From Curvibacter microcysteis (GTDB lineage Bacteria > Pseudomonadota > Gammaproteobacteria > Burkholderiales > Burkholderiaceae_C): 64,000 nucleotides of DNA. This document shows, in pieces, positions 30,273-42,322 of the stretch (its first letter is position 1; each line of letters begins with the position of its first letter). Under the pieces are notes generated by a model. It saw nothing but the letters and a program-made list of their open reading frames with translations. It had not been told where the DNA came from and made no database searches. The DNA is taken from assembly GCF_028649455.1 (NCBI RefSeq), contig NZ_JAQSIO010000005.1:124001-188000 (forward strand), read 5' to 3'. Position numbers and translations under genes: made by a program.

Positions 30273-30561
30273 CGATGGCCCGCTTAACGCTGCTTGGTGC
30301 ACCCTTGTCCTCCTCGCTGAAAATGGCATGAATAACCGGATTGAACCACAGGTTTATTTCGCTCATGACGAGGTGCAGGCAGGTGCCCCGCACCAGCCGG
30401 GAACCGTGGCGTGTACCCCATGCAGACCTGCGCGCCCCTGGCGCCCAGGCCTCGCGCAGAGTGACTCTTGGCGCGCTGTCGGGGCCACCGACAGCCGCCC
30501 GAGCCCGGGCCACAGTGCAAACTGAGCGCATGGACACCGCATGCCCCTGGAGACCTCACCG

Positions 30562-31539
30562 ATGGAATTGAAACAACTGCGGTATTTTTTACGCATCGTG
30601 GAGCAAGGCTCGATGAGCCGCGCCGCCCTCGACCTGAACATGGTGCAGTCGGCCCTGAGCCAACAGATCACCCGCCTGGAAAGCGAGTTGTGCACCCGCC
30701 TGCTGCACCGCACGCCGCGCGGGGTCACGCCCACGGAGGCGGGCCTGGCCTTCTACCGTGAGGCCCAACTGACCCTGCGACACGCCGAACAGGCGGTGCG
30801 CGCGGCCCAACAGGCGCGCCTGTCCGGCACCGTGACGGTGGGCTTGGCGCCGACCACCTCGGCCGTGCTGGGCCTGCCCCTGATGCAAGCCATGCGCGAG
30901 CGCTACCCCGACGTGCGCCTGCACATGGTGGAGAGCATGTCGGGCCACCTGACGGGCATGCTGAACGCGCGCGAGCTGGACCTGGCCCTGCTCTTCGACA
31001 CCCGGCTGCACCAGGTGCAGCAAGCCGCCAGCGCCCGTCACTGGGAGATCCAGCCCTTGCTGGAGGAGGACTTGTTCCTGATGCGCAGTGCCAGCGCCCC
31101 CCGCTTGGACGCAGACATCCCGCTGGCGGCGCTGGCGGCAGAACCCTTGATCCTGCCCACTGGCCCCCACGGCCTGCGCAGCACGCTGGACACCGCCTTC
31201 GCCAACGCCGGCCTGACGCCCCATGTGGTGTTGGAAGTGGACTCGCTGGCCATGGTCATGGCGGCGGTCGACGCCGGGCTGGGCTCGACCCTGCAGCCCT
31301 GGGCGGCACTGGGCCGCTACCCGGACGCGGCGCAGCGCTTTCAATGCGCCCGGCTCACCGGCGTGCCGGCGCGGCGCGTGAACTTGCTGTGCAGCCTGCC
31401 GGAGACCGAGCTGTCGCCCGCAGCCCTGGCCGCGCGCGTGGTCCTCCGGGATTGCGCGCGCCAGTTGGTCAACAGCGGCCGCTGGCAGGGCGCCCAGCTC
31501 AGCCTGCCCACGCCCGACTCAGCCCATCACGCTTTGTGA
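30562..31539 (+). CDS. LysR family regulator of the tcu locus
   Basis: A protein of 325 residues with an N-terminal winged HTH (1-60; MELKQLRYFLRIVEQGSMSR) and a two-lobe periplasmic-binding-type effector domain. The position upstream of tcuA and tcuB, same strand with 105 bp between, matches tcuR of enteric bacteria, which activates tricarballylate genes. The codon before the chosen ATG is preceded by other in-frame ATG codons (30541); 30562 fits the family N-terminus. The effector is inferred from context only. Confidence 0.88.
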   Translation: MELKQLRYFLRIVEQGSMSRAALDLNMVQSALSQQITRLESELCTRLLHRTPRGVTPTEAGLAFYREAQLTLRHAEQAVRAAQQARLSGTVTVGLAPTTSAVLGLPLMQAMRERYPDVRLHMVESMSGHLTGMLNARELDLALLFDTRLHQVQQAASARHWEIQPLLEEDLFLMRSASAPRLDADIPLAALAAEPLILPTGPHGLRSTLDTAFANAGLTPHVVLEVDSLAMVMAAVDAGLGSTLQPWAALGRYPDAAQRFQCARLTGVPARRVNLLCSLPETELSPAALAARVVLRDCARQLVNSGRWQGAQLSLPTPDSAHHAL

Positions 31540-31644
31540 TACCCCCATCGCCGGGCCCGGCTGCACGCCAGGCGAGGGTCTGCCTACGATCGCGCTCATG
31601 CCGGATGCCCTCCGGCGCTTCCCTGAGCGTTCCGAAGGAGACCC

Positions 31645-33099
31645 ATGTCGACCCAACCCGATGTCCTGGTGATTGGCGGTGGCAATGCCGCGCTGTGCGC
31701 CGCCCTGATGGCGCGCGAGGCCGGTGCCAGCGTGCTGCTGCTGGAGGCTGCCCCGCGTGCTTGGCGCGGCGGTAACTCCAGCCACACCCGCAACCTGCGC
31801 TGCATGCACGATGCCCCGCAGGACGTGCTGGTCGACACCTACCCCGAAGAGGAGTACTGGCAAGACCTGCTCAAAGTGACAGGCGGCCTGACCAATGAGC
31901 ACCTGGCGCGTCTGGTGATCCGCGCCTCGTCGACCTGCCGCGACTGGATGCGCCAACACGGCGTGCACTTTCAGCCGCCGCTGTCCGGCGCGCTGCATGT
32001 GGCGCGCACCAACGCCTTCTTCATGGGTGGCGGCAAGGCCCTGGTGAACGCCTATTACCGCAGTGCCGAAAAGCTGGGTGTGCAAGTGCGCTACGAAGCC
32101 CCGGTGGAGCGGCTGGAGATCGTCGACGGCCGCTTTGTGGCGGCCCACTGCCTGGTGCAGGGCCGGCCTGAGCGCATCACGGCCAAGGCCTGCGTGCTGG
32201 CCGCCGGTGGCTTCGAATCCAACCGCGACTGGCTGCGCGAGGCCTGGGGCCAGAATGAGCGCGGTGAGTGGCCCTCGGACAACTTCTTGATCCGAGGCAC
32301 CGCCTACAACCAGGGCGTGCTGCTGCGCCACCTGCTGGAAGACCACGGCGCCGACCGCATCGGCGACCCCACCCAGGCCCACATGGTGGCCATCGATGCG
32401 CGCGCACCGCTTTACGACGGCGGCATCTGCACGCGCATCGACTGCGTGTCGCTGGGCGTGGTGCTGAACCGCGACGGCCAACGCTTCTACGACGAAGGTG
32501 AGGACTTCTGGCCCAAGCGCTACGCCATCTGGGGTCGCCTGGTGGCGCAACAGCCCGGGCAGATTGGTTACTCGATCATCGACAGCCAAGCCATCGGGCG
32601 CTTCATGCCGCCGGTGTTCCAGGGCGTGCAGGCCAACACCCTGCCCGAACTGGCGCGCCAGCTCGGCCTGCCCGAGGACGCCTTCATGCACACGCTGGAC
32701 AGCTACAACGCCGCCTGCCGCGTGGGCCGCTTCAACCACACCGAGCTGGACGACTGCCACACCGAGGGCATCACACCCGCCAAGACCCACTGGGCGCGCC
32801 CCATCGACACCGCGCCTTTCTATGGCTATGCGCTCAAACCAGGCGTGACCTTCACCTACCTGGGCTTGCACACGGACGACACCGCCGCCGTGCGCTTCAA
32901 CCAGGTCCCCAGCAGCAACCTCTTTGTGGCCGGCGAAATGATGGCTGGCAACGTCCTCGGCAAAGGCTACACCGCCGGGGTCGGCATGAGCATCGGCACC
33001 GCCTTTGGCCGCATCGCCGGCACCCAGGCCGCGGCCGCAGCGCTGCACCCCCAGCAGCCCACCCACTTGAATCAAGGAGCCTCCCATGCAATCGCTTGA
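31645..33099 (+). CDS. tcuA: FAD-dependent tricarballylate dehydrogenase
   Basis: Flavoprotein of 484 residues that oxidises tricarballylate to cis-aconitate, a citric acid cycle intermediate. It begins with the dinucleotide-binding loop [13 protein letters not shown] and an acidic strand end, and ends with the FAD contact region [21 protein letters not shown], as in the fumarate reductase flavoprotein family. The downstream tcuB and the upstream LysR gene support TcuA over other family members. AAGGAG lies before the ATG; the end overlaps tcuB by 14 bp. Confidence 0.92.
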
Positions 33100-34279
33100 A
33101 GCCCTGGCGCGCGATGCGCGGGCACTGGCCAACGGCGACATCGTTCCCGAACAGCCTCTGTCGCCGGCCGAAGCCGAAGTGGCACGCCAACTGCAGATCT
33201 GCAACGCCTGCCGCTACTGCGAAGGCTTTTGTGCGGTCTTCCCGGCCATGACCCGGCGGCTGGAATTTCCCAAGGCGGACATCCACTTCCTGGCCAACCT
33301 GTGCCACAACTGCGGCGCCTGTCTGCACGCCTGCCAGTACGCGCCGCCCCACGAGTTTGCCGTCAACATCCCGCAGTCCATGGCCCAGGTGCGCGGCCAA
33401 ACCTATGCGGACTACGCCTGGCCGCCCGCGCTGGGCACGCTGTACCAGCGCAACGGCCTGACTGTGTCGCTGGCCCTGGCCGCTGGTCTGGCCCTGTTCC
33501 TGGTGCTGGCCATCGTCTTGCAAGGCCAAGGTTGGGCAGTGCTGTGGCGCGCCCAGGCTGGTGGCTTTTATGGCCTGTTCCCGCACAACCTGCTGGTGAG
33601 CTTGTTCGCCCCGGTGTTCTTGTTCGCCGCCCTGGCGCTGAGCCTGGGCGTGCGGCGCTTCTGGCGTGACATCACCCCGGCCACCAGTGGCGCACCCTTG
33701 ACGGCCCCCGCCGCCACCGAAGCCACCGACGCGGTGCTGCGCCTGCGCTACCTGGACGGCGGGCACGGCGAGGGCTGCGCCAACGAAGACGATGCCTACA
33801 CCCTGGCCCGCCGACGCTGCCACCACCTGACCTTCTATGGGTTCATGTTGTGCTTTGCGGCCACCAGCGTGGCCACGGCCTACCATTACCTGCTGGGCCT
33901 GCCCGCCCCCTACGACCTGCCCAGCCTGCCCAAGCTGCTGGGCGGCCTGGGCGGCCTGAGCCTGGCTGTCGGCACGGCGGGCCTGTGGCGCCTGAACCTG
34001 CGTCGCCACCCCCAGCACGGTGACGCCGCGCAAAAGCCCATGGACCGCGGCTTCATCGCCTTGCTCTTCCTCATCGCCACCAGCGGCCTGGCCCTGTGGG
34101 CCGTGCGCGACCGGCCTGCCCTGCCGCTGATGCTGTGCCTGCACCTGGGCGCCGTGATGGCTTTGTTCGCCACCCTGCCCTACGGCAAGTTTGCCCACGG
34201 CATCTTCCGCACCGCCTCGCTGTTGCGCCACGCCGTGGAAAAGCGCCAACCCAACCCCATCGGACTGGGTGCGGACTGA
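33086..34279 (+). CDS. tcuB: Tricarballylate utilisation iron-sulfur membrane protein TcuB
   Basis: Re-oxidises the flavin of TcuA and passes electrons to the quinone pool. The 397 residues have two N-terminal [4Fe-4S] cysteine clusters ([11 protein letters not shown] and [11 protein letters not shown] with an outlying Cys), followed by about six membrane helices with candidate heme or quinone histidines. This is the CitB/TcuB layout. It overlaps tcuA by 14 bp, so the pair is translationally coupled. Confidence 0.92.
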
Positions 34280-34345
34280 GCACGGTCCGCGCGCCCAGCC
34301 CCCATCACCGCAGACCAACAACACCCCCAAAAGGAGACCTCCCTC

Positions 34346-35317
34346 ATGCCAAGCTGTCACTTGCAGCGCGCCCTCGGGCTCGCCATCGCCGCCCTGGCCC
34401 TGAGCGCCAGTGCCCAGGACTTTCCCCCCAAGAAACCAGTCACCCTGGTGGTGGGCTTTGCGGCCGGCGGTGCCGCAGACGCTGCGGCCCGCCTGATCGC
34501 CAAGAAGCTGGGCGAGAACATCGGCCAGTCGGTGGTGGTGGACAACAAGGCCGGCGCGGGCGGCAACATCGCCCACCAGCAGGTGGCCCATGCCGCCACC
34601 GATGGCTCGGTGCTGTTGCTGGGCTCGGTGGGCCCGCTGACCATCGCCCCGCACCTGATGAAAGTGGGCTACGACCCGGTCAAGGACTTGGCCCCGGTCT
34701 CGGGCGGCGTTTACTTTCCGAACGTGCTGGTCGTGCACAAAGGGGCCAAGGTCAAGACCCTGGCGGAGTATGTGCAGCTGTCCAAGGCCAAGCCGGGCAG
34801 CGTGGACTTTGCCTCCACGGGCGCGGGCTCGGCCTCCCACCTGGCAGGCGAACTGCTGAACGAGCGCGCGGGCATCGATATGACGCACGTCCCCTACAAG
34901 GGCGGCGGCCCGGCGCTGCAAGACCTGCTGGGCGAGCGCGTGACCTCGTACTTCTCGGCCCCGCCCACCGCCCTGCCCCACATCGAGGCCGGCAAGCTGA
35001 TTCCCATCGCTACCACAGGGCTGACGCGCCCGCCCTACCTGCCCAACATCCCCACCGTGGCCGAGGCGGGCTACCCGGGCTTCGAGGCGCTGAACTGGTA
35101 CGCCTTTGTGGCCCCCAGCAAAACCCCGGCGCCGGTCCTGGACCGATGGAACCAGGAAATCGTCAAGGTGCTGAACGACCCCAAGGTGAAAGAAGCCCTG
35201 CTGAAACACGGCCTGACCCCGCAGCCCACGGGCCGCGCCGAACTGGCCACCTTCATGAAAAATGAATCGGCCAAATGGGGGGCGATCATCAAGGAGCGCA
35301 AGATCGCGGCGGAGTGA
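34346..35317 (+). CDS. Bug/TctC-type tripartite tricarboxylate transporter receptor
   Basis: Periplasmic solute-binding protein of 323 residues with a signal peptide cleaved after ASA (about residue 24), then the Bug-family start PVTLVVGFAAGGAADAAARL and the DNKAGAGGNIA and PYKGGGPALQDLLGERV motifs. Bug proteins bind carboxylates such as citrate. Following tcuAB after 66 bp, it probably binds tricarballylate or a related acid. No TctA or TctB membrane subunits are encoded nearby, so its transporter partner must lie elsewhere. Confidence 0.93.
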   Translation: MPSCHLQRALGLAIAALALSASAQDFPPKKPVTLVVGFAAGGAADAAARLIAKKLGENIGQSVVVDNKAGAGGNIAHQQVAHAATDGSVLLLGSVGPLTIAPHLMKVGYDPVKDLAPVSGGVYFPNVLVVHKGAKVKTLAEYVQLSKAKPGSVDFASTGAGSASHLAGELLNERAGIDMTHVPYKGGGPALQDLLGERVTSYFSAPPTALPHIEAGKLIPIATTGLTRPPYLPNIPTVAEAGYPGFEALNWYAFVAPSKTPAPVLDRWNQEIVKVLNDPKVKEALLKHGLTPQPTGRAELATFMKNESAKWGAIIKERKIAAE

Positions 35318-35411: not shown

Positions 35412-35706
35412 TGGTCCCCCCGACAGGAATCGAACCTGTATCTAGCGCTTCATACCACTTCGGCTTTCGCCGCCGCATCATGCGTTCGTGGTCTGGACTA
35501 TGCCTTTGCCATGGGCCCTGGGGGCCGGTAGGCAGGAGCCGTCTAGTCTCTACACCTTCCCGAAGACCGGGCTTGGTTCGGCGTTGCCACGGGGCCTTGA
35601 ATAGGCCCCAGAGGGTTCACCGAGTTTGACTCCATTCAGCCGAGGCTTTCGCGTCCGGCTGCCCATTGAAAGGAGGCACTTGTTCTATCCATTGAACTAC
35701 GAGGAG
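35412..35706 (-). tRNA. tRNA-Arg(CCU) interrupted by a group I intron
   Basis: The two exons are 35671-35706 (5') and 35412-35450 (3', including encoded CCA at 35412-35414). After splicing they form a complete cloverleaf. The acceptor stem is 7 bp (C1-G72 to G7-C66 with two G-U pairs). The D stem is GTTC/GAAC, the anticodon stem AGTGC/GCGCT, the anticodon loop CTCCTAA with anticodon CCT, the variable loop AGAT, the T stem ACAGG/CCTGT with TTCGATT loop, and the discriminator A73. The anticodon CCU reads the arginine codon AGG. The interruption lies between positions 36 and 37. A standard tRNA search may miss the gene because of the 220-nt insert. Confidence 0.95.
35451..35670 (-). other. Group I (IC3-like) self-splicing intron in tRNA-Arg(CCU)
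   Basis: 220 nt, intron position 1 at 35670. Elements seen by eye: IGS GGG (positions 7-9) pairing with anticodon CCU through the required U-G wobble. P2 is CAGCCG/CGGCTG (10-15/29-34) capped by a GAAA tetraloop. P3 is GGAG/CTCC (38-41/133-136). P5 is GGGGCC/GGCCCC (62-67/75-80). P7 is GACTA/TAGTC (123-127/171-175). P9 is a hairpin CGGC-GAAA-GCCG (199-210), and G220 is terminal (omega G). The core segments around 112-132 and 167-177 closely resemble, from memory, the Azoarcus tRNA-Ile intron. There is no endonuclease gene inside. Self-splicing is inferred. Confidence 0.93.
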
Positions 35707-40540: not shown

Positions 40541-42322
40541 ATGCCCGCCTCGACCCTGCCCCCGCTGGCCTCCGCCGAAGCAACCCCGCTGAGTGGCCCG
40601 GCCTTGTTCCGGGGCTTCACGGGCTCCCGGCTGAGTTGGATGGTGGGCCTGTCGGTGCTGGGGATGCTGTTTGCGGCCTGGATTGCCGTGGCCTTGATGC
40701 TCAACCTCAAGGCGCGCGATGCGATTGATGCCGAGGTTCGGCAAAACATCAACCTGGCCCGCGTGCTGCAGGAGCAAACCGTGCGCGTGCTGGCCACGGT
40801 GGATCAAGCCACCCTGCGCCTGCGCGACGCCGTGATCGCCGGCAACGTCTCGCCCGCGGACCTCATCAGCATCGCCAATGAAACCGGCCTGGTGCCCCAA
40901 ATCCTGACCCAACTGTCCTTGATTGGCCCCGATGGCCGCTTTCAGGGCAGCAACATCGACCCCACGGGCGAAAAGACAGGCCACGTCGACCTGTCCAGCC
41001 GCGAGCACGTTCAGGTGCACCTGCGCCCCGAGTCGGTGCCTGCAGCGGCCCAACAGATGAGCGAGAACGGCTTGTTCATCGGCAAGCCGGTGCTCGGCAA
41101 GGTGTCGGGCAAATGGACGATTCAGCTGTCCCGCAAGATCACCCGGCCCGATGGGCAGCTGATCGGCGTGGTGGTGGCCTCGGTCAACCCGGCCTACTTC
41201 GAGCAGGTCTACCAGGGTGTGAACCTGGGCACGCAAGGTGGCGTCACCTTGCTGGGCGATGACCGGAGCGTGCGCGCCCGCGTGATTGGTGGCCAGCCGA
41301 TGGGCATGGGCAGTGAAATCCCACTCAACCCCAAAGCCACCAGCGGCAACGGCAACACCGCCATCCAGGGCAGCTCCATCTCGGTCAGCCAACTGGACAA
41401 GATCGAACGCGTCTCGGCCTACCACCGGGTGGGCAGCTACCCGCTGCGGGTGTTTGTACTGACCAGCACCGACAGTGCGCTGGCCGACTGGCGCAGCCTG
41501 CGCAACCTGTCCATCGTGCTGACGGGTTTGTTCACCTTGGCTTGCCTGACAGGGGCTGGGATTTTCCTGGCCGGGGTGCGGCGCCTGGAAGCCCAGAACC
41601 GCGCCTTGGCCATCAGCGAGGCCCAGGCCCAATCGGCCAGCCGCGCCAAGAGCGAATTCATGGCCGCCATCTCGCACGAGCTGCGCACCCCACTGACCAG
41701 CATCCGGGGCTTTGCCGAGTTGATGGAGATGCGGCTGGAACAACCCCGCTTCAAGGAGCAGGCGGGCCTGATCCGCAAGGCGGCAGAACACCTGAACGCC
41801 TTGCTGTCTGAAATTCTGGACCTGGCCAAGGTCGAAGCTGGCGCCATGCCCATCACGCCTGAGCCCATCGACCTGCCCGATGTGCTCAAGTCCACCTTGG
41901 ACCTCTTCGGGGTCACCGCCGTGCAAAAAGGCCTGGACCTGCGCTTGGAGTTGGCCCCTGAAGCGCCCGCGGAACTGGTGTGCGACAGCCTGCGGCTCAA
42001 GCAAGTCCTGAACAACCTGCTGTCCAACGCCTTGAAGTTCACCAAAGAAGGGTCGATCACCGTGGCCGTGGACGCCACGCCAGAGCTGGTGCGCTTCCAT
42101 GTGATCGACACCGGACCCGGCATTCCCGCCCACCTGCACGAGACCATTTTTGAGCGCTTCCGCCAAGGCAATGACCGCGTCAGTTACGAGCACGGCGGCA
42201 CCGGCCTGGGCCTGGCCTTGTCGCGGGCCCTGGCCGGCTTGATGGGCGGCACCTTGGAAGTGCAGTCGGTCGAAGGCGAAGGCGCCCGCTTCACCCTGAA
42301 CCTGCCGCTCCAAGCGGCCTGA
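40541..42322 (+). CDS. Orphan membrane sensor histidine kinase with Cache-like sensor
   Basis: A protein of 593 residues: TM1 (about 33-55), a periplasmic region (about 60-320) resembling the dCache/PDC sensor of the ligand-binding kinase and diguanylate cyclase families, TM2 (about 325-347), HisKA with the phospho-acceptor His379 in SHELRTP, and an HATPase domain with N-box NNLLSNALKF, G1 DTGPGIP and G2 GGTGLGLALS. No receiver domain is fused and no response regulator gene adjoins, so the partner is unknown. It is convergent with plsC. Confidence 0.92.
   Translation: MPASTLPPLASAEATPLSGPALFRGFTGSRLSWMVGLSVLGMLFAAWIAVALMLNLKARDAIDAEVRQNINLARVLQEQTVRVLATVDQATLRLRDAVIAGNVSPADLISIANETGLVPQILTQLSLIGPDGRFQGSNIDPTGEKTGHVDLSSREHVQVHLRPESVPAAAQQMSENGLFIGKPVLGKVSGKWTIQLSRKITRPDGQLIGVVVASVNPAYFEQVYQGVNLGTQGGVTLLGDDRSVRARVIGGQPMGMGSEIPLNPKATSGNGNTAIQGSSISVSQLDKIERVSAYHRVGSYPLRVFVLTSTDSALADWRSLRNLSIVLTGLFTLACLTGAGIFLAGVRRLEAQNRALAISEAQAQSASRAKSEFMAAISHELRTPLTSIRGFAELMEMRLEQPRFKEQAGLIRKAAEHLNALLSEILDLAKVEAGAMPITPEPIDLPDVLKSTLDLFGVTAVQKGLDLRLELAPEAPAELVCDSLRLKQVLNNLLSNALKFTKEGSITVAVDATPELVRFHVIDTGPGIPAHLHETIFERFRQGNDRVSYEHGGTGLGLALSRALAGLMGGTLEVQSVEGEGARFTLNLPLQAA

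Follow-up and report, generated by a model that had tools for sequence, protein, structure and literature searches.

The sole tRNA-Arg(CCU) gene found in Curvibacter microcysteis is interrupted by a group IC3-like intron and probably derives from a tRNA-splitting integrative element

Introduction

Why should a tRNA gene found in a single copy be interrupted in its anticodon loop by a group I intron, and where did such a gene come from? The question is raised by a locus of Curvibacter microcysteis (assembly GCF_028649455.1; 4.82 Mb, 99.99% complete; G000 below). The window analysed here is a stretch of 64,000 nt, positions 124,001-188,000 of the forward strand of contig NZ_JAQSIO010000005.1, and coordinates without a contig label are positions in this window. 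A first-pass annotation of the window had proposed a tRNA-Arg(CCU) gene split by a compact group I intron.

Group I introns in tRNA-Arg(CCU) are already known. According to PMC7717549, the intron of the Bartonella gene, BbgpI, splices in vivo and in vitro, and PMC8450103 describes introns in the tRNA-Ile2 genes of Acidovorax and Burkholderia. The new part is the context, which for the window copy is probably the wake of integrative elements.

Results

The gene and its boundaries

Default ARAGORN finds no tRNA in the window. When the minus-strand stretches 35706-35671 and 35450-35412 are joined and 220 nt are removed, the program recognises a 75-nt tRNA-Arg(cct) with a complete cloverleaf, a CCU anticodon and an encoded CCA. 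The 5' exon (35671-35706, minus strand) covers tRNA positions 1-36 and ends with the anticodon CCU, while the 3' exon (35412-35450, minus strand) runs from position 37 to the CCA. Between them lies a group IC3-like intron of 220 nt (35451-35670, minus strand) that contains no ORF.

The 295-nt gene was used as a query against 299 genomes of the family, with some match in 257. In two members of the genus (G092, G194), query positions 1-36 and 257-295 match directly abutting positions, and according to ARAGORN this junction locus is an intact tRNA-Arg(CCU). The intron of the window therefore occupies gene positions 37-256, after U36. Exon 1 is 97% identical to the intronless alleles in the same genus, and exon 2 shows the same identity to intronless alleles. 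The removal of 220 nt between positions 36 and 37, as first proposed, is exact by both the joined exons and the intronless alleles. If introns are allowed, ARAGORN instead calls a tRNA-His(atg), which is the same intron slid by 3 nt and is excluded by the intronless alleles, the U.G pair at the 5' splice site and the terminal G. A third member of the genus, G268, keeps an interrupted tRNA-Arg(CCU) with an intron of 241 nt.

A promoter and terminator scan of the window gene found nothing. Next to the tRNA, at 30541-35317, is a row consisting of a LysR regulator, an FAD-dependent oxidoreductase, a protein that matches 4Fe-4S weakly and a TctC receptor, which resembles a cluster for the use of tricarballylate.

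Group I structure and covariation

All structural elements are on the minus strand. The internal guide sequence GGG (35662-35664) pairs with the exon CCU to form P1, with a U.G pair at the 5' splice site, and is followed by the P2 hairpin with its GAAA loop (35637-35661, by inspection). The two strands of P3 are at 35628-35633 and 35535-35540, and in four of the six pairs both sides change among the aligned cores. P4 is formed by 35618-35623 and 35578-35583 and encloses the P5 hairpin (35587-35615), two inner pairs of which entered the covariation test while its extent was set by inspection. Then follow P6/P6a and J6/7 (35547-35577), the 5' strand of P7, GACTA (35544-35548), which pairs with TAGTC at 35496-35500, and P8 (35503-35534). 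The P9 region, with a GAAA loop (35454-35492), was assigned by inspection, outside the covariation test, and the intron ends with a terminal guanosine, the omega G, at 35451, read from the sequence. The guide, the GAAA tetraloops of P2 and P9, P3, P5, P7 and the omega G are all located where the first-pass annotation had placed them.

To the core we applied a covariation test with 24 aligned intron cores (8 Arg, 6 Ile, 2 Thr and 8 Leu). A structure of 29 pairs, including the P3/P7 pseudoknot, is paired in 99.9% of the 696 cells, both sides change in 11 of the 29 pairs, and the covariation score is reached by 0 out of 500 shuffles. In the Arg, Ile and Thr cores P7 reads GACTA/TAGTC, against GAGCA/TGCTC in the Leu cores. 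The guide follows the host: with loci labelled by host, all 29 parsed Arg introns have the triplet GGG (4 of 33 could not be parsed), all 18 Ile introns have GTG (with GGGC as well in one) and all 27 Leu introns have GAG. The fold energy of the window intron (z = -2.1) is weak evidence taken alone. By its core, guide, terminal G and junction, the window intron is assigned to group I, subgroup IC3, the subgroup of tRNA introns. The intron of the Azoarcus tRNA-Ile(CAU) presumably has the same compact core. Compared with the Ile introns of Azoarcus, Acidovorax and Burkholderia, the window intron differs in its host, Arg(CCU), and in its guide, GGG instead of GUG.

The check proposed at the outset, a search with Rfam RF00028 and a tRNA model, gave a divided answer. 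The joined exons are a tRNA-Arg(CCU) by ARAGORN, but the intron fails the gathering score of RF00028, with a weak match of 18.2 bits for a 241-base query against a cut-off of 50. Searches over 1.3 kb around the gene returned nothing, either at the gathering cut-off or at E<=1. Five of six relatives tested also miss the cut-off, therefore the Rfam failure is no refutation of the window intron; at its cut-off, RF00028 is largely blind to this compact class of tRNA introns. A gathering score is a property of the model and no defining feature of a ribozyme. The exact junction, the covarying core and the guide matched to the host support the proposal of a compact group I intron splitting tRNA-Arg(CCU), and the suspicion that gene finders had missed both tRNA and intron was also right, given the silence of default ARAGORN and the sub-threshold RF00028 score.

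The tRNA-Leu(CAA) genes in L106, L108, L110, L112-L114, L116, L118, L211, L226 and L228 are interrupted after C34, seemingly with a C-G pair at the 5' splice site, where U.G is normal for group I introns. In tRNA-Thr(UGU) (L060, L061, L238, L243) group I introns are found at two places, after U34 and after U36.

Apparent dependence of the genome on interrupted tRNAs

The genome contains 49 tRNA matches above the Rfam cut-off. No Arg(CCU) or Leu(UAA) anticodon is present among these intact tRNAs. Three of them have the anticodon CAU and are, by sequence, two initiator and one elongator Met; therefore the 49 include no intact Ile(CAU) either. RF00028 finds two further introns in the genome (one at 47.9 bits, just under the cut-off), located in tRNA-Ile(CAU) (L001) and tRNA-Leu(UAA) (L002). 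Arg(CCU), Ile(CAU) and Leu(UAA) are each found in this genome only as a group I-interrupted gene, and no second, uninterrupted tRNA-Arg(CCU) was found in it. AUA needs Ile(CAU) and UUA needs Leu(UAA), and the decoding rules offer no evident substitute for either. The expectation that the genome would appear to have no tRNA decoding AGG stands in so far as its sole Arg(CCU) gene is interrupted, but an intact tRNA-Arg(UCU) is present (L010), and such a tRNA could read AGG by wobble.

The interrupted tRNA-Leu(UAA) (C4:60974-61258) has its intron between positions 31 and 32. There is no plain U.G pair at the tRNA boundary of its 5' splice site, a form also seen in L151 and L154, and an integrase lies 0.9 kb away.

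Distribution and phylogeny

The first-pass annotation considered group I introns in bacterial tRNA genes rare. The counts say otherwise: a model of the 24 cores has at least one match in 66 out of 299 genomes of the family (46 out of 141 genera), in 55 out of 349 genomes of the order and in 42 out of 398 of the phylum. Among the 80 family matches, 77 can be read as lying inside a tRNA gene, while L119, L129 and L150 gave no tRNA call. Judged by the exons, the introns interrupt Ile(CAU) at two sites as well as Arg(CCU), Leu(UAA), Leu(CAA), Thr(UGU) and Ser(UGA); a few hosts are uncertain.

Eight of the 299 family genomes were found to have an interrupted Arg(CCU) gene. A scan for such genes across named genomes gave at least 116 stretches. 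Among the 80 loci listed, in only part of which the strict core motif was seen, none has an intact tRNA-Arg(CCU) at the match. The listed loci are mostly cyanobacterial, and others come from Herbaspirillum, Ottowia thiooxydans, Variovorax ginsengisoli, Polaromonas, Ramlibacter and Acidiferrobacter. All eight cyanobacterial loci tested match the 24-core model.

A tree was built from 100 cores and 136 columns, in which many forks are unresolved. The window intron is placed nearest to that of G268, then to other Comamonadaceae Arg introns, and together with introns from Arg, Ile and Leu hosts in its own order. Monophyly of the Comamonadaceae Arg introns is not rejected (p 0.30).

Split tRNA genes beside interrupted copies

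Outside the genus, the nearest relatives of the window intron are those of G181 (90% by BLAST) and G075 (86%). In both genomes the intron-bearing gene has a decayed half of an intronless tRNA-Arg(CCU) on either side and follows the 5' half at 154 bp (G181) and 188 bp (G075). The inserted segment is 2.4 kb in G181, with dehydrogenase and TetR genes, and 5 kb in G075, with DndB-like, unknown and DNA methyltransferase genes; no PF00589 integrase was found in either. In G109 a 5' half adjoins an interrupted gene of a different exon type. What looked like a 3' half there is a tRNA-Arg(UCU) cut by the contig end and was dropped, so that only the 5' half counts. No clear native halves were found in G115, G020 and G232. 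Around the window copy the search was equally negative: no half-tRNA-Arg(CCU) lies beside it in the window or elsewhere in the genome, and no PF00589 match is present on its contig. Also G268 has no halves.

The interrupted tRNA-Ile(CAU) of the same genome gives a different picture. A 26-kb defence island (C7:176096-202381; L547/L567) splits an intronless tRNA-Ile(CAU) in the anticodon loop and carries an interrupted tRNA-Ile(CAU). The 5' half is located at C7:176096-176132, the interrupted gene downstream of it at C7:176354-176694, and the 3' half, 26.2 kb from the 5' half, at C7:202337-202381. The halves share the core CTCATAATC, the middle of which is the intron site. Their acceptor strands (GGGGCGT and ACGCCCT) fit each other and not those of the replacement (GGGCCGT and ACGGCCT). 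Two tyrosine recombinases (integrases) are found just inside the right end, and the cargo matches Lamassu LmuA/LmuB, AbiE and a type III methyltransferase. Two halves with a short shared core, enclosing a cognate tRNA and an integrase, form the signature of tRNA-dependent integration, and this Ile locus shows each part of it. G120 and G269 likewise have both Ile halves, 21 and 31 kb apart, with an interrupted gene inside, and in G260 a weaker 3' half is found about 10 kb away.

Two further loci are more complicated. G184 (L537-L539) has three matches to the intron model within 32 kb, two of them in Ile(CAU) genes, interleaved with integrases; the third is L119. In G189 (L540-L541) two interrupted Ile(CAU) genes lie within 16 kb, with integrases between them. 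Both loci look like stacked elements.

We also searched from the split genes, without requiring an intron. The pattern for Ile was a 5' half of an intronless tRNA-Ile(CAU) that no longer follows the native sequence beyond AATC. It matched once in each of 10 out of 298 genomes, and the reversed pattern matched in none of the 298. In eight of the ten split genes an interrupted Ile(CAU) lies at most 0.5 kb downstream on the same strand, and an intact copy is near none of them (1.5 kb flanks; in G019 only about 0.1 kb downstream, at a contig end). In G108 no interrupted copy is near the split gene, and an intronless CAU tRNA lies inside a 33-kb element. The corresponding pattern for Leu(UAA) was found in 8 out of 289 genomes, six with an adjacent interrupted gene and none with an intact copy within 1.5 kb; in the remaining two (G079, G057) neither kind of copy is found within this distance. 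The six Leu cases with a copy have common flanking sequence and may be one element lineage. Taken together, an intron-bearing copy is adjacent to 14 of the 18 split genes and an intact copy to 0 of the 18. The halves read through the intron site, therefore the gene that was split was intronless.

A census was then taken from the opposite side, with 82 distinct intron-bearing tRNAs and flanks of up to 1.4 kb. Loci without an intron-bearing ARAGORN call at the core motif, those overlapping an intact tRNA and exact duplicates were excluded, and hits at six loci that do not end around the anticodon loop were left out of the count of halves. Of the 82, 18 are accompanied by a half of the same isoacceptor, ending or beginning around the anticodon loop (15 5' halves and 3 3' halves). 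Thirteen of the 15 5' halves are upstream on the same strand, at 147-221 bp. The other 64 have no half within 1.4 kb. Near intact control tRNAs 0 out of 49 have a half (Fisher p = 1e-4 against 18/82), where the controls come mostly from the genome of the window and from other isoacceptors, and related elements are not independent.

Phages and plasmids

At least 80 IMG/VR loci contain the exact core motif (L378-L457), and in 61 of the 80 listed an intron-bearing tRNA surrounds it. These 61 comprise 35 Leu(UAA) and 16 called "Tyr(ata)", which we read as Leu(UAA) with a slid boundary. Several of the 19 other listed loci share a recurrent flank, which may be a protein gene. In its account of phage introns, a 2014 review places those then known in protein genes only (PMC3984707). 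The data do not support a general association between phage tRNA introns and integrases: among 37 records tested out of the 61 with intron-bearing tRNAs, taken from the matches listed, three have a PF00589 integrase.

The Gordonia phage Daredevil is described in PMC10865867 as integrating at tRNA-Lys-TTT, having no tRNA of its own and forming clear plaques. Its genome (NC_048021) has a tRNA-Lys(UUU) missing from the annotation, interrupted after U34 by a 238-nt intron with the same core (about 2339-2650 in L498; core match at 41865-41970), about 0.6 kb from the integrase gp54.

Among 72,556 plasmid records, 1272 contain a stretch resembling the intron core, with 60-80% identity in 1271 of the 1272; most are conjugative enterobacterial plasmids. 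One such stretch, unannotated, is found in pCTX-M3 (L499, 61943-62072).

Discussion

The boundaries, the covarying core, the guide matched to its host and the single copy of the window intron are direct observations. Our explanation is that the window holds the sole tRNA-Arg(CCU) gene of the genome, interrupted by a splicing group IC3 intron, and that this gene is a replacement copy from an integrative element that splits tRNA genes; we regard this as probable. The chemistry would be that of the family. After folding of the precursor, a guanosine bound in P7 would attack after U36, held as U.G by the guide GGG, and the freed 3' hydroxyl of exon 1 would then attack after the terminal G, joining CCU to AA. 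The product would be a normal tRNA reading AGG. As to its origin, an integrative element would enter an intronless tRNA gene at the anticodon loop, splitting the gene, and would bring an intron-bearing replacement. This setting is visible around the Arg genes of the relatives and the Ile gene of the same genome, and from these we infer it for the window copy.

A comparable process is tRNA-dependent lysogeny, in which, as described by Guerrero-Bustamante and Hatfull (2024, PMC10865867), phages divide a tRNA gene at a core of about 10 bp and bring the cognate tRNA themselves. As far as that description goes, the present islands agree with it in splitting a resident tRNA via a short core and in providing the cognate tRNA. 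They differ in that the former are actinobacterial phages, while here the elements are islands of Comamonadaceae-like genomes, and the core in their replacement tRNA is interrupted midway by a group I intron. The window copy differs further, as no split resident tRNA-Arg(CCU) is seen near it. Archaeal tRNA introns are spliced by proteins, and a suggestion exists that they protect against integration. PMC8371274 reports a proposal (Sugahara 2012) in which the attP of archaeal elements contains tRNA introns. As reported there, a mobile element is the vector of a tRNA intron, as we propose here, but the introns are proposed to enter the target tRNA itself. Among the titles listed in literature searches, none deals with introns in the replacement tRNAs of bacterial integrative elements.

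The most serious alternative is that the intron is simply a selfish group I element, passed on together with its tRNA locus or spread between tRNA genes by reverse splicing, and that the split genes near some relatives are a by-product of the role of tRNA genes as integration hot spots. The introns cluster by host tRNA (13 label changes in the 100-core tree, against a minimum of 10 and a shuffled mean of 56.5). The Leu(CAA) introns fall among the Leu(UAA) introns as a single supported group (97/92), and the guide suits either host, which is what a jump would produce. No att remnant accompanies the window copy, and the 64 census tRNAs without a nearby half point the same way. However, the surveys that started from split genes met intron-bearing neighbours and no intact ones, the census 5' halves keep a narrow upstream distance on the same strand, and the genes that were split had no intron. 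On balance we consider the selfish intron possible, with a chance clearly below even.

Direct descent from the tRNA-Arg(CCU) introns of alphaproteobacteria (Agrobacterium, Bartonella) seems improbable. These introns have the same tRNA and guide and likewise hide it from annotation, and the Arg(CCU) introns from other classes of the phylum, presumably alphaproteobacteria, sit at the same site after U36. BbgpI is flanked by CCT repeats, which the window intron does not have. In the tree, a weak test, the alphaproteobacterial family appears as a different lineage: a topology uniting Comamonadaceae and other-class Arg introns in one clade is rejected, though weakly (p-AU 0.026, with 136 columns and a group named post hoc), and outside the Arg group the closest row is an Ile intron from the family of the window genome (L059). 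In this tree the window intron groups within its own order, and it probably does not provide the link between the Agrobacterium and Azoarcus lineages that had been suggested.

Finally, a decaying gene, whose intron no longer splices while tRNA-Arg(UCU) reads AGG, would fit the two G-U pairs of the acceptor stem, the bare detection by RF00028 and the intact tRNA-Arg(UCU), but is very improbable in view of the intact core pairs and guide, the conserved exon 2, the retention of the gene in G268 with a different intron length and the apparent dependence of the genome on two more interrupted tRNAs, Ile(CAU) and Leu(UAA).

If the interrupted gene came as a replacement, what would its intron do there? 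We propose that such introns ride in, and perhaps shield, replacement tRNAs. The element would split a tRNA via an anticodon-loop core of about 9 bp (in Ile, CTCAT|AATC), and in the replacement this core would be broken by a self-splicing intron. The replacement would be functional as RNA and offer no DNA target to the same integrase. That anticodon-loop group I introns are a camouflage of attachment sites, with the three interrupted tRNAs of this genome as legacies of takeovers, is a tentative idea that we hold with less than even confidence. As to whether the intron is a shield or a mere passenger, the intronless tRNA inside the element of G108, the 64 of 82 tRNAs with no half nearby and the few integrases in the viral records speak against a general rule.

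Under the replacement reading there is a testable explanation for the presence of self-splicing introns in anticodon loops: the introns would mark replacement tRNAs brought by integrative elements and may protect these tRNAs from reintegration. The Rfam cut-off and the tRNA finder used here miss most such introns, so that genomes look short of tRNAs. The replacement tRNAs of mobile elements go unseen in the same way, as the interrupted tRNA-Lys(UUU) beside the integrase of Daredevil exemplifies.
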